This document shows, one piece after another, positions 3,500 through 60,195 of a DNA stretch of 64,000 nucleotides. A model generated the notes under the pieces. It did not search any database, was not told the DNA's origin, and saw only the letters and a list, made by a program, of their open reading frames with translations. A program made the position numbers and the translations under genes. Source of the stretch: Amphiura filiformis (taxonomy: Eukaryota; Echinodermata; Ophiuroidea; Amphilepidida; Amphiuridae). The stretch is from the NCBI RefSeq assembly GCF_039555335.1, contig NC_092629.1:1249935-1313934 (forward strand), given 5' to 3'. Position 1 is the first letter of the stretch. Each line of letters starts with the position of its first letter.

Positions 3500-3537
3500 T
3501 AAGCGACGAGGTGATATGAGTGTGGCAACAACAACAA
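3500..3537 (+). pseudogene. 3' stub of a gamma N-half exon (N3)
   Basis: Only the last 38 nt of an N-half exon (AAGCGACGAGGTGAT.. to the GTAAGT donor) are present, joined directly to intron sequence of R2 at 3499. There is no acceptor and no N-terminal strand, so it cannot work as an exon. It marks the breakpoint of an unequal duplication. Confidence 0.75.
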
Positions 3538-4257: not shown

Positions 4258-4278
4258 CTATAACAGCAACGGATCTAT
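4258..4278 (+). pseudogene. 5' stub of a gamma C-half exon (C3)
   Basis: The acceptor context TTTTGACCAACAAAG and the first 21 nt of the C-half exon match the copy at 14194. Unrelated DNA follows. The rest of the exon is gone, so this is the left breakpoint of the inserted block. Confidence 0.8.
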
Positions 4279-23626: not shown

Positions 23627-24204
23627 CAGTCATTAGAGACTTTGCGAAATGAAGTTACTGGAACTTTAACGGCAACTTCAAAAATATTGATTGGATTTCT
23701 TGCTCAAATTCACTTCAACGCGAACGTCAGATTGGTTTCTGTACCAACAGCGTCTTGTAGGTTAAACTAGGGGAAGTGTATCAATGGGTGATCAAAAGGA
23801 GAGTATGTAAAAGCGACTGCAACAAATTTCTCCCTTTTGTTTGCTGAAGTGCTTTGTTAGTAATACTTCAATACAATTGGCGCTTAGTTTGACTAAACAT
23901 GGATTACATCTCAAGGCGATGACCAATGCAATGGGAATTAGACCTATGTTATGAGCTATACGCTAATATTATACTCTTAACATGTTTCAACATTACTCGT
24001 TGATGGTCGATAAACGTCCCAATAAATCGGACTTCAGTTCTACAGCATAGATATCCATGGCTAACGATGGTTAACTGTGGAAACATGTTAAAGGACATCA
24101 AGAAAATTTTCTAAGTTATTTATTTTGAGCTCTTTCGAGACGAGTAATGGATATATTCTGTAGATTTAGGTTTTGTCTGTGACTGCTAATGTGAGGCCGT
24201 CGTA
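23627..24204. other. Intron DNA, nothing recognised
   Basis: No exon, RNA gene or known repeat could be supported in this stretch. Confidence 0.4.
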
Positions 24205-25894: not shown

Positions 25895-26120
25895 AATAAA
25901 TGAATGAATGAATGAATGAATGAATGAACGAATGAACGAATGAATGAATGAATGAATGAATGAATGAATGAATGAATAAATAAATAAATAAATAAATGAA
26001 AAAAAAATTGAACAAATTGTAGCGTAGCATTAAAATCATAATAACCATTGCTGGCAGGCGGATTCGAACCAACGATATTGACATTACAAGTCTGATGCTC
26101 TAACACTGAGCTATGCCATC
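25895..26120 (-). mobile_element. tRNA-headed SINE
   Basis: Read on the minus strand from 26120: a 71-nt tRNA-like head (26120-26050) has an A-box-like TAGCTCAGTGTTAGAGCA and a B-box GGTTCGAATCC. A body of about 40-60 nt follows, then a tail of about 100 nt of (CATT)n/(TTTA)n. Acceptor-like ends GATGGCA and TGCCAGC pair except for one position. This head-body-simple-tail order is that of a tRNA-derived SINE transcribed by RNA polymerase III. The anticodon loop resembles CTTGTAA (Thr-type) but the stem is imperfect, so a working tRNA is unlikely. Confidence 0.65.
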
Positions 26121-32731: not shown

Positions 32732-32836
32732 TTGAGTATTGGATTGATCCAGTTTATGTCTTCGATGAGTGTGATGCCGCGGTGGAAGTAGTCGTTCATA
32801 GAATCGGATATTTACAAAACACTGATGACACAGTTG
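32732..32836 (+). CDS. Beta-type N-half Calx-beta exon (N6)
   Basis: The exon has 105 nt, phase 1 at both ends, a TTTTTTTACAG acceptor and donor GTAAGC. It encodes EYWIDPVYVFDECDAAVEV and then VVHRIGYLQNTDDTV. It resembles the beta N-halves of the downstream array (WIDPVYIGDECD..VEVVVHRCGYLG) but is clearly diverged, so it is the single-copy relative of the array domain. Confidence 0.85.
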
Positions 32837-32926: not shown

Positions 32927-33175
32927 GCATATACACGACCGCCGTATCTGCTACAACCGCTGATTTTACTGATATACCAATGGCTACAGCAACGGTTTCA
33001 TTTAATGCAGGTGACACTGCTGTTGCTCATCCTCTAACCCTAACACCTGATGACCTGGTTGAAGGAATTGAATATTTTATGGTTGTTATAGCAACACCCG
33101 GTGGGGCGAATGCGGCAAATGCTTTGGTCCATACAGTCTTAGATACTGCAAAAGTGTTTATCCTAGATCATTCGA
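32927..33175 (+). CDS. Beta-type C-half Calx-beta exon (C6)
   Basis: The exon has 249 nt, phase 1 at both ends, acceptor TTTACAG and donor GTAAGT. It lies only 90 nt after N6, the shortest intron seen. It encodes about 83 residues: GIYTTAVSATTADFTDI, the strand TATVSFNAGDTAVAHPL, the acidic TPDDLVEGIEYFMVVI motif, and AKVFILDHSS. With N6 it forms a complete domain. Confidence 0.85.
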
Positions 33176-39346: not shown

Positions 39347-39601
39347 CCCTAACCTTGGGTGCACCAGCAACTGCAACTGTTACCGACGATTATGCAATCG
39401 ATGGCGGAAGCACTGTACCAGTTGTCTTTGCAGATGGCGATCTAGTAAAGAAAGTGGTTATAAACCTAGCAGAAGACGATGATATAGAAGACACGGAATA
39501 TGTTACAGTTACACTTGGGGCTATAACAGTAGCTGACACTGCCAAAACTACATTAGACGCAGACAGAGATACAGCCACCATATTCATACTAGATCGTTCA
39601 T
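39347..39601 (+). CDS. Alpha C-half Calx-beta exon, unit 1 (C7)
   Basis: The exon has 255 nt, phase 1 at both ends, acceptor CTATAG after a T-run, donor GTAAGT. It encodes about 85 residues: ALTLGAPATATVTDDYAID, the strand TVPVVFADGDLVKKVVINL, the acidic AEDDDIEDTEYVTVTLG motif with several putative Ca2+ ligands, and DTATIFILDRS. The intron just upstream is open in the same frame from 39142, but the AG acceptor and conservation start only at 39347. Confidence 0.88.
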
Positions 39602-40509
39602 GTAAGTTGTATAGATTTAGTAATGCAATGCGCCCGTATAAAGTTATATTTTATGGATGTGATTTGTTAACAATTGTCTAGTTACACATGGGCTAAACCT
39701 CTGCCCATTAGCCTTTTAGAGGTATGGCCGACACAATAGGATGACACTGCACGAAACGGGTAAATGCTTTTGTATTTGACACATTTTACCCATATTGAAT
39801 ACTGCCCTGCTATTGTGTATGTCATGCTTCGAAAACTCCAATGCCGTGTGGCTCATGAACGAGAAGGGTCATGTAGCCAGGCTTCCGAGTTAGGGTTTCG
39901 TTTTTGCCAATTTATATAAATTATTATAAACTGATGGAAGTAATGGTGTCTGAAGGGGCATTTGCCCCCTCAGAATTTGAAGAACTTTGAAAAATATAGT
40001 CCCAAGTGAAGGCATTTTGTGCAATAATTTGATATTATTATCAGAAATATATGGGTTCAATATATTATAGCCAAGAGGCACATTAGCGCGGTTAAAAATA
40101 GAAGTTGCAAATCAGGTATGTTATTTATCATCACAAATAATATCAATTATTTTCTTATTGTCCTGTGTTATATCACTTCCTCCATCTCTGATCTGAGCTT
40201 TCTCGGTCATCGTTGTTTTGCAAACGAAATGATTTTAAAAGAAACTTCAAATCTAGATGAGACACAGAGCCAAATTACTCTGCTAATTTATTACATTAAT
40301 ATTTTACACTTACAAATCGCCCCGCTAATCCTAAGATTAGAACGACAGGTTCTCCTTTTTTGTGACAATTTTAAGGGATTCGATCGAACCCCCCTGGCTA
40401 TGGGCCTGATTTGTTTCTATTTAAATACACAATGCTTGTTTCCGTAACAAAGCCACAAGTATGAATTTAATAACCTTAGTCAAATCAAAACCAAATCAAT
40501 ATATTACAG

Positions 40510-40565
40510 TCATGTTTGGGATAGATACAAGTTATAAAGGCAGCGACTGTGACAATAAACTGTGA
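40510..40565 (+). pseudogene. Relict beta N-half exon, unit 1
   Basis: After ATTACAG the sequence reads TCATGTTTGGGATAGATACAAG.. and ends in a TGA, resembling the start of beta-Na (TCATGTTTTGGATCGACCCAG). The aligned residues FWIDTSYKGSDCDN parallel FWIDPVYIGDECDT, then homology stops. It is a third, dead copy of the N-half exon; units 2 and 3 carry it too. Confidence 0.65.
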
Positions 40566-40772: not shown

Positions 40773-40879
40773 TCATGTTTTGGATCGACCCAGTTTATAT
40801 TGGTGACGAGTGTGAGACACTATGGTGGAAGTAGTTGTTCACAGATGCGGCTATCTGGGACATACTGATGATGCAGTTG
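40773..40879 (+). pseudogene. Beta-Na exon, unit 1, frameshifted
   Basis: It has good splice borders (ATTACAG, GTAAGC) but 107 nt against 105 nt in units 2 and 3. A two-base GA duplication after GACGAGTGTGA shifts the frame and gives a TAG at once. The next exon-like copy 69 nt downstream (beta-Nb) is intact. Confidence 0.85.
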
Positions 40880-40948
40880 GTAAGCTATAAAAAAGACAGT
40901 AAATCTTTCGTAACCTTAATGTAATCAAATATTATCAATATATTACAG

Positions 40949-41050
40949 TCCTGTTTCGGTATAATCCGATATATATCGGCGAAGAGTGTGATACTATGGT
41001 GGAAGTTGTCGTTTACAGGTGCGGTTATTTAGGACACGCAGTTGCAGTTG
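40949..41050 (+). CDS. Beta-Nb N-half exon, unit 1, intact (N8)
   Basis: The exon has 102 nt, phase 1 at both ends, acceptor ATTACAG and donor GTAAAT. It encodes LFRYNPIYIGEECDTMVEV and then VVYRCGYLGHAVAV, a full beta-type first half. In units 2 and 3 the same exon carries an 11-nt net deletion. Its Asn-Pro and Tyr-Arg residues differ from beta-Na (Asp-Pro, His-Arg). Confidence 0.8.
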
Positions 41051-41643
41051 GTAAATTGAAATTTACATAATGTAAAACCGCTGAAAAGATTTATAAGAGT
41101 ATTGATGATTGAAAAACTGCAAAGCCATTGCTATGAATTAAATAACCGAATTGGGTATGACTAATATTTGTTTAAATCAGAAAAAAAAGTTAGATAAAAT
41201 GTTTGTTAAGCTTTAACAATTTTACTGTCAAGGTATTCAGATTAGAGTGTGTAATATCCGTATTCTCTGCATTATCCATAAACAAAGGCATTAGCCTATT
41301 ATGCTTTTGAAAATTCATATCGTGATTTAGGAGAAGTCCTCAGTGTAATATAACTTATGAATGGCAAAACTACATAGATTTCATTTCATTAGGATCGCGA
41401 ATTCAACATCCAATTCAAATTGTGTTCAGACAATACGATACAACGTATGAATAGTAGTAGCAACCCGTATTTACAACGGTCTCTGCATAATTCATTCATT
41501 CGTTTATTTCCACATATAAAAATTGACCGTTATACACCTTGAACACACCTTCTTCTTGGGCTCTTGTTGAAGGAAAAAGTCCTTATGTAGCCCATCCAAT
41601 TTCATCACAATACCCTTACTGCATAATCTATTATGGGGCCATG

Positions 41644-43602
41644 TTAATAAACAACTTTCTGCCAGAGAGCTCCCGTTCCATGGGTGAACTTGTTGTATGT
41701 CTTCTCTAGAGCTCTATCTATGCCATTCTTGAATTCATTGGTAGTCTTAGCATGCACTGTATTTGCAGGCAGTCCATTCCATGCGCTCACCACTCTATTG
41801 CTGAAAGAATTTCCTCTGATACGGAGTCTAGTGTGTTGTTTCTGCACCTTGAGACTGTGACCTCTTGTTCCCACACCTTGCTGTGCCATTTGAAAGATGG
41901 AGGCTGGATTGATGTCATTAATACCATGGATTATCTTATACATCTGTATCAGATCTCCCCTTATTCTTCTGTAGGCTAATGTGGGTAAATCAAGCTCCTT
42001 CAATCTCTCTTCATACGTCATCTCTTTCAGGTCTGCAACAATTTTTGTGGCTCTTCTCTGTACTCTCTCAATCCTTACATTATCTCTGTGTAGAACTGGA
42101 CTCCAAATACAATTTGCATATTCTAGGTGTGGACGCACTAGACTTTTGTACAGAATCTTCAGCATATCTTTATTGATGTAATCAAATGTTCTCCTTATGA
42201 TTCCAACCATCCTGTTGGCTCTATTGGCAACCATATCAACATGCTTTGAAAAGGTCAACGAGGGGTCAAATTTCACTCCCAAATCTTTCTCTTCTTCTAG
42301 TACTTCTAAATTTCTTCTATTACCTTCTTCTGACATGCTATATGTACATGGTGTTGGTTGTGAACCATAGTGCATTACTCCACACTTTGCTACATTGAAT
42401 TTCAGCTGCCAGGTATCTGACCACAAACTCAGGTTGTCCAAATCCTCTTGAAGCTTCTCGCAATCCTCTTCTTTCTGAACATGCGTAAACACCTTTGTGT
42501 CATCAGCAAATATCTTTACATAACTTTCAACTACATCAGGTAGGTCATTGATGAATATGATGAAGAGGATAGGACCTAGGACACTGCCTTGCGGGATACC
42601 GCTAATGACGTCTGCCCATTCAGATGTTCCACCATTTACACAGACTCTCTGTTTTCTACCTGTCAGGAAGCTTTCTATCCAACTCTTTAGATTTCCATCT
42701 ATGCCATGAGCCTTCACTTTCTTGAGTAGGCGCTGGTGTGGTACGCTGTCGAAAGCCTTCCTGAAGTCCAAATATATCACATCAATACCTCCGCCCTCAT
42801 CCAACATGCTGGACCACAAATCCATGATCTCTATCAGCTGAGTCACACATGACCTTCCAGCTCTAAACCCGTGTTGGTCTTCACTAAGCAGCGTATTCTT
42901 GTTCAAGAAGTCCATGACATGGTCTCTGATAATTGACTCAAGGAGTTTACAAATGACTGATGTTAGACTCACTGGTCTGTAGTTGCCTGGGCTTTTTACT
43001 GATCCCTTCTTGAAAATTGCCGTCACATGTGCTATTTTCCAGTCATCCGGTACTATCCCTTCACCAAGTGATTTGTTGAAGATGATGGTCAGTGGTTTTG
43101 TAATTGCATATGTGACCTCCTTAAGCACCCTTGGATGAAATCCGTCAGGACCTGGTGATTTATTTGGTTTTAATTTATCCAACTTTTTCTTCACCTCCTC
43201 CTCTGAAACTGTAATATCCTTTAGCCTATCACCAACATGTTTCATCTCAGGTTCTGGGATGTCTTCATCATTCTCTCTTGTGAACACACTAGCAAAAAAC
43301 TTGTTCAATTCCTCCGCTTTCTCTTCATCAGTGTGCGCAAGTGTTCCATCTTCTTTTTCCAAATCACTTATCCCTTGTTTAACATGGGTCTTGGAGCGGA
43401 CGTATTTCCAAAAACTTTTCGGATTTACTTTGATCTCCTCAGCGAGTTTTCTTTCAAATGATCTCTTAGCTTTCCTAACTTCATTTGTTGCTGCATTTCT
43501 TGCTGTACAATAATCTTGGTAGTCTTTTCCCTGCCTAGTAGCTAGGTACCGCTGCCATGCATGGTATTTCTTCTTCACCTTACTCATCGCATCTTTATTC
43601 AT
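41644..43602 (-). CDS. LINE ORF2, reverse transcriptase part
   Basis: This 652-codon frame copies the element's RNA into DNA at the target site. Motifs in order (approximate residues): NPKSFWKYV 60-68, PNKSPGPDG 146-154, NYRPVSLTS 207-215, QHGFRAGRS 243-251, YLDFRKAFDSV 277-287 (first catalytic Asp), GIPQGSVLGP 335-344, FADD 365-368 (catalytic pair), then the CR1/jockey-type C-terminal region with EYANCIWSP and VQRRATKIV. The first Met is arbitrary: upstream codons in this frame (N-P-L-W) are still conserved and belong to the same polyprotein as the endonuclease frame, from which it is separated by one frameshift. Otherwise it is intact, which suggests a young copy. Confidence 0.92.
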   Translation of the reverse strand: MNKDAMSKVKKKYHAWQRYLATRQGKDYQDYCTARNAATNEVRKAKRSFERKLAEEIKVNPKSFWKYVRSKTHVKQGISDLEKEDGTLAHTDEEKAEELNKFFASVFTRENDEDIPEPEMKHVGDRLKDITVSEEEVKKKLDKLKPNKSPGPDGFHPRVLKEVTYAITKPLTIIFNKSLGEGIVPDDWKIAHVTAIFKKGSVKSPGNYRPVSLTSVICKLLESIIRDHVMDFLNKNTLLSEDQHGFRAGRSCVTQLIEIMDLWSSMLDEGGGIDVIYLDFRKAFDSVPHQRLLKKVKAHGIDGNLKSWIESFLTGRKQRVCVNGGTSEWADVISGIPQGSVLGPILFIIFINDLPDVVESYVKIFADDTKVFTHVQKEEDCEKLQEDLDNLSLWSDTWQLKFNVAKCGVMHYGSQPTPCTYSMSEEGNRRNLEVLEEEKDLGVKFDPSLTFSKHVDMVANRANRMVGIIRRTFDYINKDMLKILYKSLVRPHLEYANCIWSPVLHRDNVRIERVQRRATKIVADLKEMTYEERLKELDLPTLAYRRIRGDLIQMYKIIHGINDINPASIFQMAQQGVGTRGHSLKVQKQHTRLRIRGNSFSNRVVSAWNGLPANTVHAKTTNEFKNGIDRALEKTYNKFTHGTGALWQKVVY

Positions 43603-46016
43603 CCATAATGGGTTTCTCTTTTCTCTGGCTTACTTTGTCTTGGTTTGGTCTTGGGAATATTGTCTTCCATGGCCTCATACATCTTAGTTGCAAATAACCT
43701 CCAACTGTCATTTGCATCCATACTTCTCATCTCCTCCTCCCAGTTAATTGCATTTAACTCTTTTTTCATTGACTCATAATCTCCCTTGTTGAATAGATAT
43801 CTCTCTTTTTCAACTTCATCATCCTCTTCCATGTAGCACTGAAGTTCAAAATGTAAAACAACATGGTCACTTTTCCCCAACGGACATCTGGCTTGCACCT
43901 CCTTTATCAAGCCATCTTCATTAGTGATGGCAAGATCCAATAAGCTTGGCTTTTGACCCTCTCTAAATCTAGTGCTGCAGTTAACCGCTTGATAGAGGAA
44001 GTTGTTCTGTAAACAATCTATCAAACCCCAACTAGGGTGATTCATACTGGCTTTACTAGACCATGTGTCCCATTCTATTTCGGAGTAGCTGAAGTCCCCC
44101 ATAATAAGTAGATGTGAACTTCCCCTTCTACATGCTGCATCTATAAGGTGATGTAATTGGTCATTGTTGTCACTATCGGAACTTGGGCTCCTGTAAACGT
44201 AGCCAACAAGTAACTTGTCTTTATTTTTCAGCCTTAATTCACACCAAATGCTCTCCTGAAATGATAAACTCGAAAGCTCATCAACAGGAATTGCCTTAAA
44301 CTTCTTTCTTGTGTAAATGCAAACTCCTCTACCTCCGGTGCTAACTAAGCAGTCATAGCCATCTAGCTCGAATTCAGCTTTTTGAACTTCCGTCTCTACA
44401 TTCTTCGGAAAAACTTCTGTAATTGCAATTACATCTGGCTGCAAGCTGGCAATATTTGCTTCGAGCTCCTTCCTCTTATTCAATAAACTATCTGCATTTG
44501 TGTACATGCATTTCAAGTGTACTGGTGTGGTATTGGCTGCATTTGTTTGCTCGCAATTGACACTGGTTTTTGTCTCCTTATTCGGCTTATTGTCATTAGC
44601 GTTCGAGGTACTCTTTGTCCTCTGCTTTGTAAAGTCATTAGTCTTCTTCTGTCTCTCATTATTTGTCTCCTTCAGTTTTACTTCCTCATTTATCACCTCA
44701 GATTTATTCAAAGTAGTACTTCTGTGCTTCTCTCCAAAGCTTGGTGAGTTTTCCTCTCCGACTGAGGTTTTTCTATTATCTTCCCTCCTCTCACTGTATT
44801 TCTCCTCTCTTGTCTTGTTAATCTTACTTAATGTCTTCTTTTTCCGCTTCACTTCCTCGTAGGTCACCCCTGCTGTATTCAGGGTGGTAATACTGTCCTT
44901 TACCATCTTCTCACTGGTTTCCTTCTCACTTAACTTACTTGAGCTTAACAACTTCTTCCTCAACTTCACTTCCTCATCATTCATCCCGGCTGTATTTACA
45001 GTGGTACTTGTGGGATGGAATGATTTCATCTTCAATTTCACTTCCTTCTCTGTCTCAACTGTGTTAGAATTGTCAAATCCATGTCTACCGCTCAATGAAT
45101 CTATTTCCCTCTTCTCACCGTTTTCTTTCGCAGTCTCATTTGTCTTACTGAACTTACTTGACTTACTTATAAAGGAATTAATCATCTTCGGCTTCGCTTC
45201 CTCCTCCCTCTTCTTTTCTTCACCTGAAGCGGTATTTCTATTCCTGTCCCTACTTCTCAAATAGTCTTCCTCCCTCACCGCGGATTTTCTATCCTCATCC
45301 CTCTTCATCTTGGATCCCTTCTCATTTGTTCTGCTCAACTTACTTGTCTCACTTATCTTACTTGTGTGGCCAGAGAACTCCGGTTCCATTTCATTTTCTA
45401 TCCTCTCGTCTACCTCATCTGTCAATACCTCAAATTTATTTGAAGTGGTACATGCAATCATTACTCTACTACTTGAAGTATCTTCAGAACTCATCGAGGA
45501 TATACTATCCTCATCACTATCATTGTTTGAGTTCCCACTTACATGTAACTTACAAATCTTACTCATGGAGTACCGGTAGTCAGTCTTCTTCAGCCTCACT
45601 CCTCCATCAATCTTCTCGTCTTTGCTCGAAATGTTACTTTTCGACTCATCACTACTGCTTGCAGAATCTTCATCCCTCTTTGGGGATTTACTGACATGAT
45701 TCTCACTTAACTTACTTATGTATTTACTGACATGCCTCTCACTTAACTTACTTGTGGAGTATCTATTTACATCATCAATCTCCTTTTCTGTGCTACATCT
45801 GATTACTGGCGAAATTTTCGCAGCTTTTGCTGTGCTCCTGGCACTATTGTTACAAGAGTCCACTTGGGTAAACTTACTGCTTCTTTCATTCAGTTTATAC
45901 TTCTGAGTTTCACTGTAATGGGAATTCTTTTTCCTTTCAGTGTCTATATGTATACGGTGCAACTTTGTAGCTCCAGGGGTGTATATGGTGCTTTCAACAT
46001 ACGGTGCGGTGTGCAA
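43599..46016 (-). CDS. LINE ORF2, endonuclease part with long N-terminal extension
   Basis: The frame has 805 codons. Residues about 500-726 form an apurinic-like (EEP family) endonuclease: YTNADSLLNKRKEL, ITEVFP with the catalytic Glu near 534, GDFS 640-643, SLLDLAIT 691-698, KSDHVVLHF 715-723. This nicks target DNA for target-primed reverse transcription. Residues 1-500 are an unusual hydrophilic Ser/Lys/Glu-rich extension with internal repeats (SKLSERHVSK / SKLSENHVSK near 90-110; NTAG..EEVK..KK steps near 341, 380 and 440). The frame ends in TGA overlapping the ATG of the reverse-transcriptase frame (ATGA at 43602-43599). Conserved residues continue across the junction in the other frame, so this is a mutation rather than a natural gene boundary, unless programmed frameshifting is used. 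Confidence 0.88.
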   Translation of the reverse strand: MHTAPYVESTIYTPGATKLHRIHIDTERKKNSHYSETQKYKLNERSSKFTQVDSCNNSARSTAKAAKISPVIRCSTEKEIDDVNRYSTSKLSERHVSKYISKLSENHVSKSPKRDEDSASSSDESKSNISSKDEKIDGGVRLKKTDYRYSMSKICKLHVSGNSNNDSDEDSISSMSSEDTSSSRVMIACTTSNKFEVLTDEVDERIENEMEPEFSGHTSKISETSKLSRTNEKGSKMKRDEDRKSAVREEDYLRSRDRNRNTASGEEKKREEEAKPKMINSFISKSSKFSKTNETAKENGEKREIDSLSGRHGFDNSNTVETEKEVKLKMKSFHPTSTTVNTAGMNDEEVKLRKKLLSSSKLSEKETSEKMVKDSITTLNTAGVTYEEVKRKKKTLSKINKTREEKYSERREDNRKTSVGEENSPSFGEKHRSTTLNKSEVINEEVKLKETNNERQKKTNDFTKQRTKSTSNANDNKPNKETKTSVNCEQTNAANTTPVHLKCMYTNADSLLNKRKELEANIASLQPDVIAITEVFPKNVETEVQKAEFELDGYDCLVSTGGRGVCIYTRKKFKAIPVDELSSLSFQESIWCELRLKNKDKLLVGYVYRSPSSDSDNNDQLHHLIDAACRRGSSHLLIMGDFSYSEIEWDTWSSKASMNHPSWGLIDCLQNNFLYQAVNCSTRFREGQKPSLLDLAITNEDGLIKEVQARCPLGKSDHVVLHFELQCYMEEDDEVEKERYLFNKGDYESMKKELNAINWEEEMRSMDANDSWRLFATKMYEAMEDNIPKTKPRQSKPEKRETHYG

Positions 46017-46061
46017 AACATGTTTGTTGTGCGATCCCTGCAGCTACTTCCTTTATCTTTT

Positions 46062-47252
46062 TTAACGAAAGGATTGAGAATTGGATGGTTGAAACGTCTC
46101 ATCATCACCATCTTTCTGTATCTGAATAATCTTCCCTCTCCGTATCACTAATCCCTCTTCACCTTCTTCGGTTCTTCTCTGTAAATCTTCTCTCAGACTC
46201 TTGTTGTGTTGACGTTCTTTGGGTGAGAAGTCAGGGGTTACATAAATGTTGCTCCATTGATCTGTTTCTTTTAGCTTTTTGGCATTCGTTAACATGTTCC
46301 TTTTTGTCTTGACCGAGTCTACTGTTACTTTTAAAAGTCTTGCTTTCCTCTCCACTTTCTTCCCTAACCTCACAACTGAACTCAATGCTACCTCTTCTAC
46401 TTCTAGGCCCATATCAATCATATCTACTACTTGCTCCGTATCTTCCCTAATTCTGTCTTTAGATTCTTCTTGTTCCGATTCAGGTAAATTATGTATTATT
46501 ACATTACACTTTCGTAATTCCCTCTGTCGGTACTCCTCAATGGCCTCTTGGACCTTAGTATCAATAGAACTCTCCAGCTTGTCAACCTTTATGTTTAACT
46601 CCCCAAGTCCAGTTTTACAGCTGTCCTGCTCGTCTCTAACACCCTGGAGTGTTTTCCCCAAATTTTTTATGGTAGGAAGTGCGTGCATGCAAGAGTCACA
46701 TGTCCAAATGATGTTGGGTACATCTTTATCAAGCATTAGGTCGTACATAGGCTCTGACACTGCCGTGCAGTATAGGCACATCCACATGGCGCAAAATTCA
46801 CATCTCAGTGCCTTTATATTCTCATTTATTACACCATCACATTTAGCACAGCTTACGGGAGTATCATTTACTTCATTACCACTAGTACTACTGGCGCTTA
46901 ATGACTGATCTGGTTCGCCCAATACCTCCATCAATTCCTTTTTACCTCTTTGTTTTGTCTTACTTCTTACATTACTTCTGGTAGGTTTGGTTTGCTCACT
47001 ACAATCAGTACTACTACTGCCTTTGCGTCTACCTTTCCTATTGCTGATGCTAATCTCTCTACTACCTGCATGACTTGAGGAGCGGAATTTGACGCCTTTG
47101 GGTTTAACGCTTAAGCTTAACTCTGATTCTGCTAACTCCTCTTCATTTGTTACCACACTTCTACTTCCTCTTTTACCTCTCTTATTCGTGGTACCTCTTA
47201 CTTTCTGGGTCTGTGTTACTTCTTCTTCACTATCGGGGTTCTTGACCTCCAT
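46062..47252 (-). CDS. LINE ORF1 protein (zinc-finger, coiled coil, RNA-binding region)
   Basis: The frame has 396 codons. A basic, Ser-rich N-terminus (1-130) precedes a PHD-like Cys cluster (CAKC 135-138, CEFC 151-154, C..C 159-162, CDSC 185-188), a probable coiled coil (about 195-245) and an RRM-like segment beginning RKCNVIIHNLPE near 247. This is the architecture of CR1/jockey-type ORF1 proteins that bind element RNA. It ends 45 nt before the ORF2 start. Intact with no internal stop. Confidence 0.85.
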   Translation of the reverse strand: MEVKNPDSEEEVTQTQKVRGTTNKRGKRGSRSVVTNEEELAESELSLSVKPKGVKFRSSSHAGSREISISNRKGRRKGSSSTDCSEQTKPTRSNVRSKTKQRGKKELMEVLGEPDQSLSASSTSGNEVNDTPVSCAKCDGVINENIKALRCEFCAMWMCLYCTAVSEPMYDLMLDKDVPNIIWTCDSCMHALPTIKNLGKTLQGVRDEQDSCKTGLGELNIKVDKLESSIDTKVQEAIEEYRQRELRKCNVIIHNLPESEQEESKDRIREDTEQVVDMIDMGLEVEEVALSSVVRLGKKVERKARLLKVTVDSVKTKRNMLTNAKKLKETDQWSNIYVTPDFSPKERQHNKSLREDLQRRTEEGEEGLVIRRGKIIQIQKDGDDETFQPSNSQSFR

Positions 47253-48187
47253 CTTGGGTAAGCTTCAAAGTATTACGCCACCCACACACACCAGAAAATC
47301 TTCACAAATCTCTAAATCGGTACAGCATACACTTTACCTACTTACATCGAGTAAAGCCAAGGACATAAAAGACAATATGCAGTGGGTATTGTGGTGAGAA
47401 AGGATGTTAAAACATAAGATTTAGTGAAAAGTTTTACTCAATATCGATGACAACAATCTTCATCAGTCTGACCTCTGACCTCCTCCCTGAACATGAATGT
47501 TAATGAATTGGGAAGGACGGCATTCACCCCAAATATTGAACTTAAACTGCAAATGCTTTTAGGGGTTTTAAGCCAAACATTCGTCCCTCAATCATCATAC
47601 ACAATTCCGTCCAGCACCTAGAGCTGCTCAAAATTAATAATAATTTATCAAAATTAATAATTGAAAACTTACACAAATGTGAATAATAGTGTTGGAAGTA
47701 AACATTTTAAGGATTAACTGAGCTATGCAAAGCAATAACATATTCTAGTTTGAACGCCTTAAATTGCGTTTTACATTTTATGTACTTCCATAAATTATAC
47801 AGTATAATTTGTACTCCACGATTAAAATGTAGTTTTTGCATTTACTTGCGATCAAAATCGGTTTGAAAATGTGTCTAGACAATATAATTCAACACAGTCT
47901 CAATAGTATGGCTAGAAATCTAAGGGGTTTGCAATGTTTACTATGGGGTTTTGCAGAGAAACATTTGTCATAGACACACAATTTATGGAGTTCATGAATA
48001 GAAAAGTCTATAGATTATTATATATACCTTACATTTTCTATACTGCATTTAAGTAATACAGTATTATAGGCACTCGGTTGTATTCTTGTTTTATAGGAGT
48101 AAGTACGACTTCAATTTATACAACTACATTTACTTCGTCAACTCCTATAATATACCTCTTTTAATTTTGAATGTATATTTTACACAG

Positions 48188-48451
48188 AGATATACACGTC
48201 TACGACAGGCGTAACTGCTTCTGGCGCCGATTTCACCGAAATAGCTATGGCTAACCCAGTAGATACGGAGGTCTCTTTTGCACAAGGTGATTGTGCAGTT
48301 GCTCATCGACTTGCTTTAACACCTGATGACCTGGTTGAAGGAATGGAATATTTTGAGGTTGTTATAGGAACAATTTCTGGTACCAATGCGGCCAAAGGCT
48401 CCGTCCATACAATCTTAAATACAGCAAAAGTGTTTATCTTGGATCATTCAA
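48188..48451 (+). CDS. Beta C-half Calx-beta exon, unit 1 (C8)
   Basis: The exon has 264 nt, phase 1 at both ends, acceptor TACACAG and donor GTAAGT. It encodes about 88 residues: EIYTSTTGVTASGADFTEI, TEVSFAQGDCAVAHRLAL, the acidic TPDDLVEGMEYFEVVIG motif, and AKVFILDHSS. Its N-half partner in this unit is beta-Nb at 40949, 7.1 kb upstream across the LINE. Just upstream, 48098-48160 (GAGTAAGTACGACTTCA..) looks like a decayed second start of this exon type. Confidence 0.88.
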
Positions 48452-50285
48452 GTAAGTAGGGAAACGTTATTAGAGATAAATAAGTCAGAAGAGAGTGCAA
48501 CGTAGAATGCTGCCCTCAGTCGTCAACCGTCTGGTTTGACGACTGAGAAAACTACGTGGAAAAAATGTGACGGATTTTGCAACAGGATTTCTGTGGCTTA
48601 GAGCATGCGCAGTTGTGTCCAAATTGACCTTTTGACCGAGTTTGTTGTTTTTAGAAGTTCAGAGCGCGATCTTGTCACAGCGGCGTGGTACAGCGACGCG
48701 GTAACGGGCGCCGCTAGTCAGTCGCGCTACGGCGCACAACCAAAGTCGCATTGAATAGTTTTCAGAAGTCCGCCACGATATGAAGTGCAAGATAATCAGT
48801 CGTCACTACGAAGCATACACAGTACATGCAAAGTGTAGACGGCTGATTGGAATTAGTCTAAGTGCAACGTGGGATGAATATCACAATAGCCAACATGGAC
48901 AGAGTACCAAATTCAATCTCATTGAAATACTGTATGAGCTACGCACTTTTTTAAAATTCCATATCAATATTACCCACAATGCACTCTATTCTGAATGATC
49001 AATATCTTGTTTCTTTTGTTTAACGACATTTCTTTTGATGTTGTACAACTTAAAGCTCCTAAACTTTGGAGTCGTTGTACACTCTTTATTAGAAGCATGA
49101 ACGTTTCAACACATGAAGTACGAGGTCCAATGTTTATTTAAAACGTTGGGCCTTTTTTGATTTTACACAAAAAGGTAATCATTTCAGAAAATCTTGGCAA
49201 ATTGCTCATCTTCATGTAATAAGAATCAAGAAACTGCATGGAACATGCATTGTGATATCTTTACCTGTTATGCGCAAGTTACAGTCAAATATTAATAGTG
49301 GTTACGGCATGTGCTTGACCCAGTTGGCACTCTATTTCAGTTTGTTAACACATTCGATAAGCAAAACTATTCGTTTTTAAATTATTATATTCAGCTAAAC
49401 GAACAATTGTCCACCATTTTCATCAATATCGGAGTAAGCCCTGTACAACCAAAATGAGTTTTTGTAGGATAACTTAATCACGACAGGACGCAGATAGCGC
49501 ACACTATACACTAGTTTAATCCTTGGGATCAGCAGAATTATACCCGAGTCACGCTCGTCCGAGTCCGAGCAGATCCGAGTCCATTCGCTTCTGAGTCCGA
49601 GCCAAGTCCGATACCTTTGTGTCAGAGTCCGGACTCGATTCCGAGTCCGGTGGTGCCGAGTTCGAGCAAAGTCAGAGTATTTGTATAAAATAATGCTATA
49701 AAAGGGGTTATTGTGTATAGCATAATGAAAAAGGGGGTAATTGGGCATAAACATTTGAAAGAATGAGGTCATACGGTATGATATTTAAAAAACAGGCCCA
49801 TCGAGCCGAACATTTCCCATCAATAAAGCAAAATTCTAAATTTTGTTTCTACGTAAGTTACCAAATGTATAATACAAATTTACTGAAATTATAAGAGAAT
49901 TTGAATGTTTCACAGTAATGAATTCTTCTGATCATACACTACTTTGATTGAATTGAAATGAAATCGATTGTTTATAATGCGAAAATGAAATTGGGATTCG
50001 TTGGGATCATTCAATCTGGCGCGAAAAAGAATGACACTTTTAATTAATCGAACGCACATGTTGCGAAATTGACCAGGAAAACCTATATATATAACATTTA
50101 AAGAACTTTTTTTCGAAAACTTCATGCATTTGCAAAACTGTTTGCCCAAAATATTTTACAATACCGTTGTAAAAGTTTTCATGACCATTTTGAATAATCG
50201 ATTTAAGAAAATGTTCGTGTTTGTTTGCTTATGTATTTCTTATTTGTGAATTTACCATAAACGTCTGTTTAATATTCATCATCAG
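48452..50285 (+). other. Intron between units 1 and 2, with CpG-rich patch
   Basis: About 48490-48780 is CpG-rich and starts with a hairpin (CAGTCGTCAA / TTGACGACTG). The same patch follows beta-C in units 2 and 3. The rest is AT-rich unit sequence. The open frame at 48780-48998 is broken in the other units and is not supported as a gene. Confidence 0.5.
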
Positions 50286-50384
50286 CTTTAATCTGGATCG
50301 ATCCCATATATGTCGGTGAAGAAGATAATACGGTTTGTATTTATGTTCATCGTTCAGGATTTTTAGGAGACGATACAACAGTCG
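50286..50384 (+). CDS. Alpha N-half exon, unit 2 (N9)
   Basis: 99 nt, phase 1 at both ends, CATCAG acceptor and GTAAGT donor. Same protein as unit 1 except Phe for Tyr in RSGFLGDD. Frame intact. Confidence 0.88.
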
Positions 50385-51336
50385 GTAAGTACTCTGTAAT
50401 ATCATAATTTTTTATATATACTTCCAAATGAAGGCACGAGTCTAAGAAGTACGATAGATCCTTTTTGAGTTATTTTAATTAAATGTTACCTATAACAATA
50501 TTGATCATGAAACTATAAAAAATAAAGGGTAATATCATAATTACTTGCGCTATATGAGATTAATTGAGCGATGTCTAGCCATTTTTTTCTAAAACACACG
50601 CCATCTCTCTTTTAAATGCTTACATGCCATTAGTTGTATTTCCAACTTTGCCAGAAAGTCTATTTTGCACATATCTATGTATCCCTGGTAAAGACATTTC
50701 ATTCGAAATACACAACTAAAAAAAACATACGACTATAATATTTATTAACCCATTTTGGGCGTTTAAAATACCATCGACCAAGTGGTGCTTGATTTCCACA
50801 ATTTTTAAACACATTAAATAATTATGTTTGACTTAATAAGTAGGTCCTACTTGAGGAGTGGCACTTCAACATTATGTGACGTTGTAAAAGTCCCACTTTT
50901 CAGCATCTATGTCACCCTAATACCCCATATTATTGGATTATACATGGCCTGTCAACCAGAGTCCCATTATACCTTCGTAGATCTGTCAAAGGTTTTGTAA
51001 ACCATATTCATGGGTTCGATTCACGGACGGGATCACCTTTTCTACTTGTCTCCTTTATTATCTGCGACGGCGAACTTGTTTATTTTAGATATTTAATTCT
51101 CGTTGACCATGCCACTGTTTATCCTTGTTCTGTGAGAATGTTTGAATTATGTTCTCACCTGATGACCCCAATAAAGGGACCCATCTCTCTCACGCCACCC
51201 CCTTATTCCTACATTTTATTTCACCGAAATCCCCTCTATTTCAATGTTTCAGCCTTTTACCTGTTTCAATTTCATAACAAAGTACCCTTCCCTCCGGCAA
51301 CAATCTCTTATGTAATGTTATTTTTTGTTACTATAG

Positions 51337-51591
51337 CCTTAACCTTGGGTGCACCAGCAACTGCAACTGTTACCGACGATTATGCAATCGATGGCGGAAG
51401 CACTGTACCAGTTGTCTTTGCAGATGGAGATCTAGTAAAGAAAGTGGTTATAAACCTAGTAGAAGACGATGATATAGAAGACACGGAATATGTTACAGTT
51501 ACACTTGGGGCTATAACAGTAGCTGACACTGCCAAAACTACATTAGACGCAGACAGAGATACAGCCACCATATTCATACTAGATCGTTCAT
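51337..51591 (+). CDS. Alpha C-half exon, unit 2 (C9)
   Basis: 255 nt, phase 1 at both ends, CTATAG acceptor and GTAAGT donor. It encodes the same strands as unit 1 with Val for Ala before EDDDIEDTE. Frame intact. The 1-kb intron to N9 is of unit type. Confidence 0.88.
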
Positions 51592-52493
51592 GTAAGTAGT
51601 ATAGATTTAGTAATGCAATGCGCCCGTATAAAGTTATATTTTATGGATGTGATTTGTTAACAATTGTCTAGTTACATATGGGCTAAACCTCTGCCCATTA
51701 GCCTTTTAGAGGTATGGCCGACACAATAGGATGGCACTGCACGAAACGGGTAAATGCTTTTGTATTTGACAGATTTTACCCATATTGAATACTGCCCTGC
51801 TATTGTGTATGTCATGCTTCGAAAAGTCCAATGCCGTGTGGCTCATGAACGAGAAGGGTCATGTAGCCAGGCTTCCGAGTTAGGGTTTCGTTTTTGCAAA
51901 TTTATACACATTATTATAAACAGATGGATGTAATGGTGTCTGAAGGGGCATTTGCCCCCTCAGAATTTGAAGAACTTTGAAAAATATAGTCCCAAGTGAA
52001 GGCATTTTGTGCAATAATTTGATATTATTATCAGAAATATATGGGTTCAAAATATTATAGCCAAGAGGCACATTAGCGCGGTTAAAAATAGAAGTTGCAA
52101 ATCAGGTATGTTATTTCATCACAAATAATATCAATTATTTTCTTATTGTCCTGTGTTATATCACTTCCTCCATCTCTGAACTGAGCTTTCTCGGTCATCG
52201 TTGTTTTGCAAACGAAATGATTTTAAAAGAAACTTCAAATCTAGATGAGACACAGAGCCAAATTACTATGCTAATTTATTACATTTATATTTTACACTTA
52301 CAAATCGTCCCGCTAATCCTAAGATTAGAACGACAAGTTCTCCGTTTTTGTGACAATTTTAAGGGATTCGATCGAACCCCCCTGGCTATGGGCCTGATTT
52401 GTTTCTATTTAAATACACAATGCCTGTTTCCGTATAAAGCCACAAGTGTGAATTTAATAACCTTAGTCAAATCAAAACCAAATCAATATACAG

Positions 52494-52549
52494 TCATGTT
52501 TTGGATAGATACAAGTTATAAAGGCAGCGACTGTGACAATAAACTGTGA
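52494..52549 (+). pseudogene. Relict beta N-half exon, unit 2
   Basis: After ATACAG comes TCATGTTTTGGATAGATACAAG.. with FWIDTSYKGSDCDN, then TGA. It has the same stop as in units 1 and 3, so the decay predates the array duplication. Confidence 0.65.
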
Positions 52550-52759
52550 CTGCAGTTTCTGTTTGTTTTTCGCGGCGTTTCTTTATGCAAAATAAAGGTT
52601 GTGCAAAATGACATATTTAATTAATATGTAAAGTTGTATGCTACACCGGCCTTAATGCTGAAAAGGGGCCATAATATTTGTTATAATTGTATATAATATT
52701 TGTAACACAGTAAATCGTTCGTATCCTTAATCCTATCAAATATTATCGATACATTACAG

Positions 52760-52864
52760 TCATGTTTTGGATCGACCCAGTTTATATTGGTGACGAGTGT
52801 GACACTATGGTGGAAGTAGTTGTTCACAGATGCGGCTATCTGGGACATACTGATGATGCAGTTG
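52760..52864 (+). CDS. Beta-Na N-half exon, unit 2, intact (N10)
   Basis: 105 nt, phase 1 at both ends, ATTACAG acceptor and GTAAGC donor. It encodes MFWIDPVYIGDECDTMVEV and then VVHRCGYLGHTDDAV. It is intact here, unlike unit 1. The intact C-half partner is at 54061. Confidence 0.88.
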
Positions 52865-52933
52865 GTAAGCTATAAAAAAGAGAGTAAATCTTTCGTAACC
52901 TTAATGTAATCAAATATTATCAATATATTACAG

Positions 52934-53024
52934 TCCTGTTTTGGTATAATCCGATACGAGTGTGACACTATGGTGGAAGTTGTCGTTTACAGATGCGGCT
53001 ATTTAGGACATGCAGTTGCAGTTG
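52934..53024 (+). pseudogene. Beta-Nb exon, unit 2, deleted
   Basis: It has splice borders like unit 1 but is 91 nt instead of 102. Twelve bases encoding the Y-I-G-E segment are replaced by one C, so the frame hits TGA directly (CGAGTGTGA). The same lesion is found in unit 3. Confidence 0.85.
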
Positions 53025-54060
53025 GTAAATTGAAATTTACATAATGTAAAACCGCTGAAAAGATTTATGAGAGTATTGATGATTGACAAACTGCAAAGCC
53101 ATTGCTATGATCTAAATAACCAAATTGGGTATGACTAATATTTGTTTAAATCAGAAAAAAAAGTTAAATAAAATGTTTGTTAAGCTTTAACAATTTTACT
53201 GTCAAGGTATTCAGATTAGAGTGTGTAATATCCGTATTCTCTGCATTATCCATAAACAAAGGCATTAGCCTATTTTGCTTTTGAAAATTCATATCGTGAT
53301 TTAGGAGAAGTACTCAGTGTAATATAACTTATGAATGGCATAACTACATAGATTTCATTTCATTAGGATTGCGAATTCAACATCCAATTCAAATTGTGTT
53401 CAGACAATACAATACAACGTATGAATAGTAGTAGCACCCCGTATTTACAACGGTCTCTGCATAATTCATTCATTCGTTTATTTCCATATATAAAAATTGA
53501 CCGTTATAGTTATCCAAATTAATAATTGAAAACTTACACAAATGTGAATAATAGTGTTGGAAATAAACATTTTAAGGATTAACTGAGCTATGCAAAGCAA
53601 TAACATATTCTAGTTTGAACGCCTTAAATTGCGTTGTACATTTTATGTACTTCCATAAATTATACAGTATAATTTGTACTCCACGATTAAAATGTATTTT
53701 TTTTTCATTTACTTGAGATGAAAATCGGTTTGAAAATGTGTCTAGACAATATAATTCAACACAGTCTCAATAGTATGGCTAGAAATCTAAGGGGTTTGTA
53801 ATGTTTACTATGAGGTTTTGCAGAGAAACATTTGTCATAGACACACAATTTATGGTGTACATGAATAGAAAAGTCTATAGATTATTATAATTATATACCT
53901 TAAACATTTTATATACTGCATTTAAGTAATGCAGTATTATTGGCACTCAGTTGTATTTTTGTTTTATAGGAGTAAGTACGACTTCAACTTATACAACTAC
54001 ATTTACTTCGTCAACTTCTATAATATACCTCTTTTAATTTTGAATGTATATTTTACACAG
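53025..54060 (+). other. Intron with the empty LINE site
   Basis: The uninterrupted target is at about 53501-53515 (CCGTTATAGTTATCC). Comparison with unit 1 defines the LINE ends. Near 53971-54030 a decayed start of the beta-C type lies just upstream of the real acceptor. Confidence 0.7.
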
Positions 54061-54324
54061 AGATATACACGTCTACGACAGGCGTAACTGCTTCTGGCGC
54101 CGATTTCACCGAAATAGCTATGGCTAGCCCAGTAGATACGGAGGTCTCTTTTGCACAAGGTGATTGTGCAGTTGCTCATCGACTTGCTTTAACACCTGAT
54201 GACCTGGTTGAAGGAATGGAATATTTTGAGGTTGTTATAGGAACAATTACTGGTACCAATGCGGCCAAAGGCTCCGTCCATACAGTCTTAAATACAGCAA
54301 AAGTGTTTATCTTGGATCATTCAA
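54061..54324 (+). CDS. Beta C-half exon, unit 2 (C10)
   Basis: 264 nt, phase 1 at both ends, TACACAG acceptor and GTAAGT donor. Differs from unit 1 by a few residues (Ser for Asn in MASPVD, Thr for Ser in GTITGTN, Val for Ile in VHTV). Frame intact. Confidence 0.88.
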
Positions 54325-56158
54325 GTAAGTAGGGAAACGTTATTAGAGATATATAAGTCAGAACAGAGTGCAACGCAGAATGCTGCCCTCAGTCGTCAAC
54401 CGTCTGGTTTGACTACTGAGAAAACTACGTGGAAAAAATGTGACGGATTTTGCAACAGGATTCCTGTGGCATAGAGCATGCGCAGTTGTGTCCAAATTGA
54501 CCTTTTGACCGAGTTTGTTGTTTTTAGAAGTTCAGAGCGCGATCTTGTCACAGCGGCGTGGTACAGCGACGCGGTAACGGGCGCCGCTAGTCAGTCGCGC
54601 TACGGCGCACAACCAAAGTCGCATTGAATAGTTTTCAGAAGTCCGCCACGATATGAAATGCAAGATAATCAGTCGTCACTACGAAGCATACACAGTACAT
54701 GCAAAGTGTAGACGGCTTCTTGGAATTAGTCTAAGTGCAACGTGGGATCAATATCACAATAACCAACATTGACAGAGTACCAAATTCAATCTCATTGAAA
54801 TACTGTGTGAGCTACGCACTTTTTTTAAAATTCCATATCAATATTACCCACAATGCACTCTGTTCTGAATGATCAATATCGTGCTTCTTTTGTTTAACGA
54901 CATTTCTTTTGATGTAGTACAACTTAAGGCTCCGAAACTTTGGAGTCGTTGTACACTCTCTATTAGAAGCATGAACGTTTCAACACATGAAGTACGAGGT
55001 CCAATGTTTATTTAAAACGTGGAGCCTTTTTTGATTTTACACAAAAAGGTAATCATTTCAGAAAATCTTGGCAAATTGCTCATCTTCATGTAATAAGAAT
55101 CAAGAAACTGCATGGAACATGCATTGTGTTAACTTTACCTGTTATGCGCAAGTTACAGTCAAATATTAATAGTGGTTACCGCATGTGCTTGACCCAGTTG
55201 GCACTCTATTTCATTTTGTTAACACATTCGATAAGCAAAACTATTCGTTTTGAAATTATTATATTCAGCTAAACGAACAATTGTCCACCATTTTCATCAA
55301 TATCGGAGTAAGCCCTGTACAACCAAAATGAGTTTTTGTAGGATAACTTAATCACGACAGGACGCAGATAGCGCACACTATACACTAGTTTAATCCTTGG
55401 GATCAGCAGAATTATACCCGAGTCACGCTCGTCCGAGTCCGAGCAGAGCCGAGTCCATTCGTTTCTGAGTCCGAGCCAAGTCCGATACCTTTGTGTCAGA
55501 GTCCGGACTCGATTCCGAGTCCGGTGGTGCCGAGTTCGAGCAAAGTCAGAGTATTTGTATAAAATAATGCTATAAAAAGGGGTTATTGTGTATAGCATAA
55601 TGAAAAAGGGGGTAATTGGGCATAAACATTTGAAAGAATGAGGTCATACGGTATGATATTTAAAAAAAGGCCCATCGAGCCGAACATTTCCCATCAATAA
55701 AGCAAAATTCTAAATTTTGTTTCTACGTAAGTTACCAAATGTATAATACAAATTTACTGAAATTATAAGAGAATTTGAATGTTTCACAGTAATGAATTCT
55801 TCTGATCATACACTACTTTGATTGAATTGAAATGAAATCGATTGTTTATAATGCGAAAATGAAATTGGGATTCGTTGGGATCATTCAATCTGGCGCGAAA
55901 AAGAATGACACTTTTAATTAATCGAACGCACATGTTGCGAAATTGACCAGGAAAACCTATATATATAACATTTAAAGAACTTTTTTCGAAAACTTCATGC
56001 ATTTGCAAAACTGTTTGCCCAAAATATTTTACAATACCGTTGTAAAAGTTTTCATGACCATTTTGAATAATCGATTTAAGAAAATGTTCGTGCTTGTATG
56101 CTTATGTATTTCTTATTTGTGAATTTACCATAAACGTCTGTTTAATATTCATCATCAG

Positions 56159-56257
56159 CTTTAATCTGGATCGATCCCATATATGTCGGTGAAGAAGATA
56201 ATACGGTTTGTATTTATGTTCATCGTTCAGGATTTTTAGGAGACGATACAACAGTCG
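56159..56257 (+). CDS. Alpha N-half exon, unit 3 (N11)
   Basis: 99 nt, phase 1, CATCAG acceptor and GTAAGT donor. Identical in protein to unit 2. Confidence 0.88.
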
Positions 56258-57210
56258 GTAAGTACTCTGTAATATCATAATTTTTTATATATACTTCCAA
56301 ATGAAGGCACGAGTCTAAGAAGTACGATAGATCCTTTTTGAGTTATTTTAATTAAATGTTACCTATAACAATATTGATCATGAAACTATAAAAAATAAAG
56401 GGTAATATCATAATTACTTGCGCTATATGAGATTAATTGAGCGATGTCTAGCCATTTTTTTCTAAAACACACTCCGTCTCTCTTTTCAATGCTTACATGC
56501 CATTAGTTGTATTTCCAACTTTGCCAGAAAGTCTATTTTGGACATATCTATGTATCCCTGGTAAAGACATTTCATTCGAAATACACAACTGAAAAAACCA
56601 TACGACTATAATATTTATTAACCCATTTTGGGCGTTTAAAATACCATCGACCAAGTGGTGCTTGATTTCCACAATTTTTAAACACATTAAATAATTATGT
56701 TTGACTTAATAAGTAGGTCCTACTTGAGGAGTGGCATTTCAACATTATGTGACGTTGTAAAAGTCCCACTTTTCAGCATCTATGTCACCCTAATACCCCA
56801 TATTATTGGATTATACATGGCCTGTCAACCAGAGTCCCATTATACCTTCGTAGATCTGTCAAAGGTTTTGTAAACCATATTCATGGGTTCGATTCACGGA
56901 CGGGATCATCTTTTCTACTTGTCTCCTTTATTATCTGCGACGGCGAACTTGTTTATTTTAGATATTTAATTCTCGTTGACCATGCCACTGTTTATCCTTG
57001 TTCTGTGAGAATGTTTGAATTATGTTCTAACCTGATGACCCCAATAAAGGGACCCATCTCTCTCACGCCACCCCCTTATTCCTACATTTTATTTCACCGA
57101 AAGCCCCTCTATTTCAATGTTTCAGCCTTTTACCTGTTTCAATTTCATAACAAAGTACCCTTCCCTCCGGCAACAATCTCTTATGTAATGTTATTTTTTG
57201 TTTTTTTTTT

Positions 57211-57465
57211 CCTTAACCTTGGGTGCACCAGCAACTGCAACTGTTACCGACGATTATGCAATCGATGGCGGAAGCACTGTACCAGTTGTCTTTGCAGATG
57301 GAGATCTAGTAAAGAAAGTGGTTATAAACCTAGTAGAAGACGATGATATAGAAGACACGGAATATGTTACAGTTACACTTGGGGCTATAACAGTAGCTGA
57401 CACTGCCAAAACTACATTAGACGCAGACAGAGATACAGCCACCATATTCATACTAGATCGTTCAT
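57211..57465 (+). CDS. Alpha C-half exon, unit 3, acceptor AG lost (C11)
   Basis: The exon body (255 nt) is intact and matches unit 2, with the GTAAGT donor. The usual TTACTATAG before it is replaced by a run of T, so no AG stands at the exon border. As written, this exon could not be spliced normally; skipping it would join N11 directly to the next N-half in frame. A base-calling or assembly error at the T-run is an alternative. Confidence 0.65.
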
Positions 57466-58367
57466 GTAAGTAGTATAGATTTAGTAATGCAATGCGCCCG
57501 TATAAAGTTATATTTTATGGATGTGATTTGTTAACAATTGTCTAGTTACATATGGGCTAAACCTCTGCCCATTAGCCTTTTAGAGGTATGGCCGACACAA
57601 TAGGATGGCACTGCACGAAACGGGTAAATGCTTTTGTATTTGACAGATTTTACCCATATTGAATACTGCCCTGCTATTGTGTATGTCATGCTTCGAAAAG
57701 TCCAATGCCGTGTGGCTCATGAACGAGAAGGGTCATGTAGCCAGGCTTCCGAGTTAGGGTTTCGTTTTTGCAAATTTATACACATTATTATAAACAGATG
57801 GATGTAATGGTGTCTGAAGGGGCATTTGCCCCCTCAGAATTTGAAGAACTTTGAAAAATATAGTCCCAAGTGAAGGCATTTTGTGCAATAATTTGATTTT
57901 ATTATCAGAAAGATATGGGTTCAAAATATTATAGCCAAGAGGCACATTAGCGCGGTTAAAAATAGAAGTTGCAAATCAGGTATGTTATTTCATCACAAAT
58001 AATATCAATTATTTTCTTATTATCCTGTGTTATATCACTTCCTCCATCTCTGAACTGAGCTTTCTCGGTCATCGTTGTTTTGCAAACGAAATGATTTTAA
58101 AAGAAACTTCAAATCTAGATGAGACACAGAGCCAAATTACTATGCTAATTTATTACATTTATATTTTACACTTACAAATCGTCCCGCTAATCCTAAGATT
58201 AGAACGACAAGTTCTCCGTTTTTGTGACAATTTTAAGGGATTCGATCGAACCCCCCTGGCTATGGGCCTGATTTGTTTCTATTTAAATACACAATGCCTG
58301 TTTCCGTATAAAGCCACAAGTGTGAATTTAATAACCTTAGTCAAATCAAAACCAAATCAATATACAG

Positions 58368-58423
58368 TCATGTTTTGGATAGATACAAGTTATAAAGGCA
58401 GCGACTGTGACAATAAACTGTGA
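58368..58423 (+). pseudogene. Relict beta N-half exon, unit 3
   Basis: Same as unit 2: ATACAG then TCATGTTTTGGATAGAT.. with a TGA after about 18 codons. Confidence 0.65.
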
Positions 58424-58627
58424 CTGCAGTTTCTGTTTGTTTTTCGCGGCGTTTCTTTATGCAAAATAAAGGTGCAAAATGACATATTTAATTAATATGT
58501 AAAGTTGTATGCTACACCGGCCTTAATGCTGAAAAGGGGCCATAATATTTGTTATAATTGTATATATTTGTAACACAGTAAATCGTTCGTATCCTTAATC
58601 CTATCAAATATTATCGATACATTACAG

Positions 58628-58732
58628 TCATGTTTTGGATCGACCCAGTTTATATTGGTGACGAGTGTGACACTATGGTGGAAGTAGTTGTTCACAGATG
58701 CGGCTATCTGGGACATACTGATGATGCAGTTG
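58628..58732 (+). CDS. Beta-Na N-half exon, unit 3, intact (N12)
   Basis: 105 nt, phase 1, ATTACAG acceptor and GTAAGC donor. Same protein as in unit 2 and frame intact. Confidence 0.88.
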
Positions 58733-58801
58733 GTAAGCTATAAAAAAGAGAGTAAATCTTTCGTAACCTTAATGTAATCAAATATTATCAATATATTACA
58801 G

Positions 58802-58892
58802 TCCTGTTTTGGTATAATCCGATACGAGTGTGACACTATGGTGGAAGTTGTCGTTTACAGATGCGGCTATTTAGGACATGCAGTTGCAGTTG
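58802..58892 (+). pseudogene. Beta-Nb exon, unit 3, deleted
   Basis: 91 nt with the same 11-nt net loss and premature TGA as unit 2, so the lesion arose before units 2 and 3 separated. Confidence 0.85.
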
Positions 58893-59931: not shown

Positions 59932-60195
59932 AGATATACACGTCTACGACAGGCGTAACTGCTTCTGGCGCCGATTTCACCGAAATAGCTATGGCTAGCC
60001 CAGTAGATACGGAGGTCTCTTTTGCACAAGGTGATTGTGCAGTTGCTCATCGACTTGCTTTAACACCTGATGACCTGGTTGAAGGAATGGAATATTTTGA
60101 GGTCGTTATAGGAACAATTTCTGGTACCAATGCGGCCAAAGGCTCCGTCCATACAGTCTTAAATACAGCAAAAGTGTTTATCTTGGATCATTCAA
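59932..60195 (+). CDS. Beta C-half exon, unit 3 (C12)
   Basis: 264 nt, phase 1, TACACAG acceptor and GTAAGT donor. Ser in GTISGTN as in unit 1, otherwise like unit 2. Frame intact. Confidence 0.88.

Follow-up and report, generated by a model that had tools for sequence, protein, structure and literature searches.

A tandem pair of exons that code for the same half of a Calx-beta domain has lost its reading frames in opposite ways in repeat units of Amphiura filiformis. One unit retains only the second exon (b2), and the two units that follow retain only the first (b1). Two independent events account for this pattern.

Organization of the Calx-beta array and its paired exons

The analysed window comprises 64,000 nt of the forward strand of A. 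filiformis (assembly GCF_039555335.1, NC_092629.1, positions 1,249,935-1,313,934). Its plus strand, on which all exons described here are located, contains an array of Calx-beta domains (PF03160) that apparently belong to one gene. In the alpha/beta part of the array, each domain is encoded by an N-half exon and a C-half exon, and the intact exons are of phase 1 at both ends. Joined N- and C-halves exceeded the Pfam gathering score of 27 bits in all five tests, with values of 29 to 47.2 bits (junction residues are approximate, and the fifth test joins non-neighbouring copies). A phmmer comparison with solved structures yielded no credible match; the best E was 0.12.

From about 38 kb onward, the array is repeated in units of about 5.87 kb. 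In each of units 1-3 the order is alpha N-half, alpha C-half, the remnant of a further N-half (b0), b1, b2, and beta C-half; unit 4 reaches the end of the window before its b cassette. The alpha C-half exons are found upstream of the cassette at 39347..39601 (unit 1), 51337..51591 (unit 2), and 57211..57465 (unit 3). The frame of the last one is open, and at 57200-57211, where the sequence of the other three units ends in the acceptor AG, it is preceded by a run of T, which reflects either genuine decay or an error of the assembly. The beta C-half exons comprise 264 nt each and are located at 48188..48451, 54061..54324, and 59932..60195, respectively. A LINE-type insertion in the intron that follows b2 adds about 6.1 kb to unit 1, whose beta C-half lies beyond the insertion and completes the domain. 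The retroelement lies on the minus strand at 41535-47644, with its bounds taken from the interval that separates two blastn matches to unit 2, and contains RVT_1 and endonuclease domains in two frames that overlap.

Further features were observed in the window. Another Calx-beta type is present in tandem copies at 921-4280. It comprises an N-half of 104 nt that is out of frame (921-1024), an intact N-half (2907-3011) followed by an N-half fragment (~3494-3550), and a truncated C-half (~4218-4277). Tandem repeat arrays with periods of 148 and 115 are located at 24203-25051, and a tRNA-like match (Rfam RF00005, 44.5 bits) occupies 26049-26120 of the minus strand.

In unit 1, b1 (40773..40879, 107 nt) contains two additional nucleotides (GA) that break its frame, and b2 (40949..41050, 102 nt) is intact. 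In unit 2, b1 (52760..52864, 105 nt) is intact, and b2 (52934..53024, 91 nt) has lost its frame through a net deletion of 11 nt. Unit 3 contains the same intact b1 (58628..58732, 105 nt) and the same shortened b2 (58802..58892, 91 nt), both identical to their counterparts in unit 2. AG and GT flank all six exons, which means that the splice sites of the three broken copies are intact. Both indels are plain in the alignments, and neither of them is located in a homopolymer. In the adjacency test for tandem duplicated exons, b1 and b2 were found to be homologous and adjoining, with intact copies of 105 and 102 nt and phase 1 at both ends. The exon ends, lengths and alignments confirm the coordinates, lengths and indels that the original prediction had assigned to the six exons. 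Its description of two adjacent phase 1 exons followed by a single C-half agrees with the 264-nt C-half exon present in all three units. It had also attributed the losses to different mutations in the units. This is correct for the GA insertion and the 11-nt deletion; however, there are only two independent breaks and not three. Because b1 and b2 are identical in units 2 and 3 and the introns of these units are only 0.8% apart (23/2967), their shared deletion was counted as one event.

Within the alpha/beta array, frame loss is concentrated in the paired exons. Three of the six b1/b2 exons are broken, compared to none of the 13 other listed exons of the array (Fisher P 0.021; 0.044 if units 2 and 3 are treated as one), although one of these 13, the alpha C-half of unit 3, is the exon without an acceptor AG. 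The consequences for the transcript were computed for the four splice paths through each cassette. Exactly one path is open per unit, namely the one with b2 alone in unit 1 and the one with b1 alone in each of the two other units, as expected from the earlier claim of a single usable N-half. Paths that include both exons break the frame in all three units, which rules out both exons in series as a present productive form. Skipping of both N-halves is likewise ruled out, as it creates a TAG at the junction in each unit. Inclusion of a broken exon shifts the frame, and a stop is reached no later than about 10 to 20 codons after entry; splicing must therefore now bypass these exons.

Age, origin, and coding constraint of the exon pair

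Over 33 codons, b1 and b2 differ by 15 synonymous and 10 nonsynonymous changes, which corresponds to a dS of 1.92 and a dN of 0.14. Note that dS was derived from about 22 nearly saturated sites, that the counts are small, and that the tests treat the differences as independent. The introns of units 1 and 2 differ by 4.1% (119/2930). The divergence of the exons is far above this value, and the pair is therefore much older than the duplication of the units. By parsimony, with reference to the remaining units, to the partner exon and to a single upstream N-half, neither b1 nor b2 was broken before the separation of the units.

This upstream N-half belongs to a beta-type domain that contains only one such exon (32732..32836, 105 nt), with a donor that starts with GTAAGCT like that of b1; the corresponding C-half (32927..33175) follows after an intron of 90 nt. 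The N-half served as an outgroup for a three-point split of the differences. The b1 branch received 0.5 nonsynonymous and 10 synonymous changes (P 2e-6), a clear indication of coding constraint on b1. For b2, constraint seems likely on some lines of evidence and not on others. It is favoured by the pairwise comparison of b1 and b2, which gives P 4e-5 for a lack of constraint on either exon and P 0.012 for two branches of equal length of which one was free. When b2 is set to the earlier state inferred for it (8 of 19), the respective values are 7e-4 and 0.042. It is also favoured by the profile score: with exact splice joins, the C-half alone reaches 21.7 bits for PF03160, which is below the cut-off, b1 plus C-half reaches 32.6 bits, and b2 plus C-half 37.4 bits. 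Thus b2, which adds more to the score than b1, reads as a sound Calx-beta N-half. In contrast, the outgroup split does not favour constraint on b2. Its branch received 9.5 nonsynonymous and 5 synonymous changes (P about 0.2), and in direct comparison with the outgroup (24 nonsynonymous, 9 synonymous) b2 is indistinguishable from neutral (P 0.29). In simulations, a neutral copy stayed open in 19% of cases with 14 changes and in 6% with 25 changes.

A truncated third N-half, b0, precedes the pair by about 260 nt in all three units. The remnants are located at 40509..40562, 52493..52546, and 58367..58420 in units 1 to 3, and each consists of an open stretch of 18 codons followed by a stop. The peptide match is weak in unit 1 (i-E 0.57) and has an i-E of 0.04 in units 2 and 3; the nhmmer E values are 2.5e-8, 1.4e-6, and 1.3e-6, respectively. 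The score of the alignment of unit 2 b0 to b1 was reached by none of 1000 shuffles, and an acceptor-like AG is present at b0 in units 1 and 2. It follows from this remnant and from the single upstream N-half that the cassette arose by repeated local exon copying. An origin from two once separate domains that fused and lost the C-half between b1 and b2 was considered and is less probable, since the 69-nt spacer between the two exons consists almost entirely of a donor side and of sequence that resembles the intron upstream of b1.

In unit 2, the last 56 nt of the spacer, i.e. the region directly upstream of b2, are identical at 47 of 56 positions to the intron sequence that precedes b1. This upstream sequence is better preserved than the synonymous sites of the exons (Fisher P 0.004 or 2e-5), as would be expected if the acceptor regions were constrained, or if conversion had occurred. 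Two further comparisons concern the broken copies. The b1 exons of units 1 and 2 do not differ by any substitution in 105 nt (P 0.013 at the intron rate); therefore, the break of b1 in unit 1 is young, or the exon was recently homogenised, or the indel is an error. The broken b2 differs from the intact b2 by five substitutions outside the gap edge and carries the b1 base at all five of them, so that some gene conversion is possible.

The spacer itself (40880..40948 in unit 1) has the same length of 69 nt in units 2 and 3 and is identical between these two. Its only branch-like YTNAY motif places the A at 40 nt from the 5' splice site. For OGDH exons 4a and 4b, exclusivity is attributed to a short spacer, and a branch-point threshold of about 50 nt from the upstream 5' splice site is quoted (PMC7969005). 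As in OGDH, the branch-like A of the window lies below about 50 nt; however, the branch points of the window are guesses from a loose motif, and the threshold of about 50 nt may not be that of the brittle star. The 90-nt control intron contains YTNAY five times, at 19 to 87 nt. Because the motif is also frequent there, its position in the spacer is weak evidence, and the idea that the 69-nt spacer bars joint inclusion of b1 and b2 is suggestive only. No signal emerged from a scan for docking sites that could pair, as 30 of 60 and 28 of 60 shuffles were equally good.

Explanations for the opposite exon losses

The following course of events would account for these observations. Homology shows that a tandem duplication of the N-half exon of the beta domain took place long ago, and that a further copy, b0, has decayed. 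Subsequently, b1 and b2 would both have been used, most likely as mutually exclusive alternatives. Since two N-halves in series would give an N-N-C product, a choice between them is a sensible ancestral mode. The repeat unit was then copied, with one N-half being enough per beta domain. Comparison of the units shows that b1 was lost to a frameshift in unit 1 and b2 to a second frameshift in the ancestor shared by units 2 and 3. We give about an even chance to the core of this scenario, namely that both exons were long used, most likely exclusively, before different copies broke in the units. In its last step, the splicing choice would now be fixed by position, such that one beta domain has the b2 version and two have the b1 version. 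That alternative splicing has in this way turned into fixed positional diversity, with one protein carrying both versions in a set order, is a tentative proposal that we regard as rather doubtful.

The number of breaks and their distribution among the units were compared with neutral expectation. The introns of units 1 and 2 differ by 12 indels in 2930 aligned nt, i.e. about one per 244 nt. At this rate, two or more frameshifting indels in the roughly 207 nt of the cassette have a P of 0.16, and the two frameshifts therefore do not exceed neutral expectation. By our own count, opposite outcomes have a chance of one half, or of two in six if the positions of the breaks are unconstrained. As chance alone gives a third to a half, the complementarity as such is not significant; chance suffices to explain the opposite outcomes, and selected complementarity is unsupported. 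The original prediction had proposed mutually exclusive or redundant exons that resolved in opposite ways after duplication. It stands in so far as both exons were once intact, b1 is constrained, b2 reads as a good N-half, and different copies were kept. However, the opposite outcomes lie within chance, and the exclusivity is a supposition. The prediction did not include the b0 remnant, the common origin of the deletion in units 2 and 3, the TAG that arises when both exons are skipped, the absent acceptor AG of the alpha C-half in unit 3, or the comparable broken halves around 921-4280.

Plain birth and death of exons, in which local copying is followed by random breakage, one good copy suffices, and a regulated choice never existed, is possible but less likely than this scenario. 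The b0 remnant would be a third, dead copy, and the broken halves of the other Calx-beta type at 921-1024, ~3494-3550, and ~4218-4277 belong to the same locus. The neutral indel rate and the changes on the b2 branch fit as well. On the other hand, the pairwise pattern of b1 and b2 and the good Calx-beta score of b2 are unexpected for a silent spare, which would moreover have stayed open in only 6 to 19% of the simulations. Errors in the data themselves, i.e. indels that are sequencing errors or segregating alleles, or units that are partly misjoined haplotypes, are an unlikely cause of the pattern. It is true that b1 of unit 1 deviates by GA alone and by no substitution, that a suspicious T run replaces the acceptor in unit 3, and that the introns of units 2 and 3 are so similar. 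But the 11-nt deletion is shared by two units with introns that are not identical, all 13 other listed exons of the array are intact in frame, and both indels lie outside homopolymers.

It is very improbable that the broken copies are maintained as poison exons, the inclusion of which switches the transcript off. The early stop after frame loss and the retention of AG and GT in the three broken copies would suit this role, as would the donors of unit 1, where the broken b1 keeps GTAAGC and the intact b2 has GTAAAT. However, in our judgement splice sites would often survive by chance at 4% divergence. Moreover, different exons are broken in different units. The scenario of two formerly alternative exons that were broken differently in the repeat units is compared with known systems below.

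Comparison with known systems and significance

CBD2 of NCX is a Calx-beta domain. NCX1 and NCX3 contain mutually exclusive exons A and B inside CBD2 (PMC9820601). NCX and the window thus have in common exclusive exons within one domain of this kind, with the exclusivity in the window being presumed. The differences are that exons A and B alter Ca2+-coordinating positions of CBD2, whereas in the window the whole N-half would be swapped and the likeness is at the level of the Pfam domain.

Cases in which duplicated genes lost alternative exons reciprocally have been reported for mitf in fish (PMC5306129) and for CACNA1F/CACNA1S and FYN-family kinases (PMC9741552). As in the window, a homologous exon pair is involved in these cases, and each duplicate keeps a different exon. 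In contrast to the separate genes of those cases, the copies of the window are repeat units of apparently one gene, for which prior alternative use is presumed. Reciprocal exon loss is thus known between duplicated genes, and the case of the window appears to be located between repeats of a single gene. Among the matches listed for open-licence PMC texts (titles and abstract starts), none dealt with reciprocal exon loss between repeats of one gene, and no report of a Calx-beta domain with exon duplication was found in texts of this kind.

In the papers cited above, the exchange between alternative splicing and duplication is described between whole genes. Repeats of one gene would show it at a young stage, with an intron divergence of 4% and with dead exons that have kept their splice sites. 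If true, the array would offer a direct test of whether the position of a repeat can replace a splicing choice in a repeat protein.
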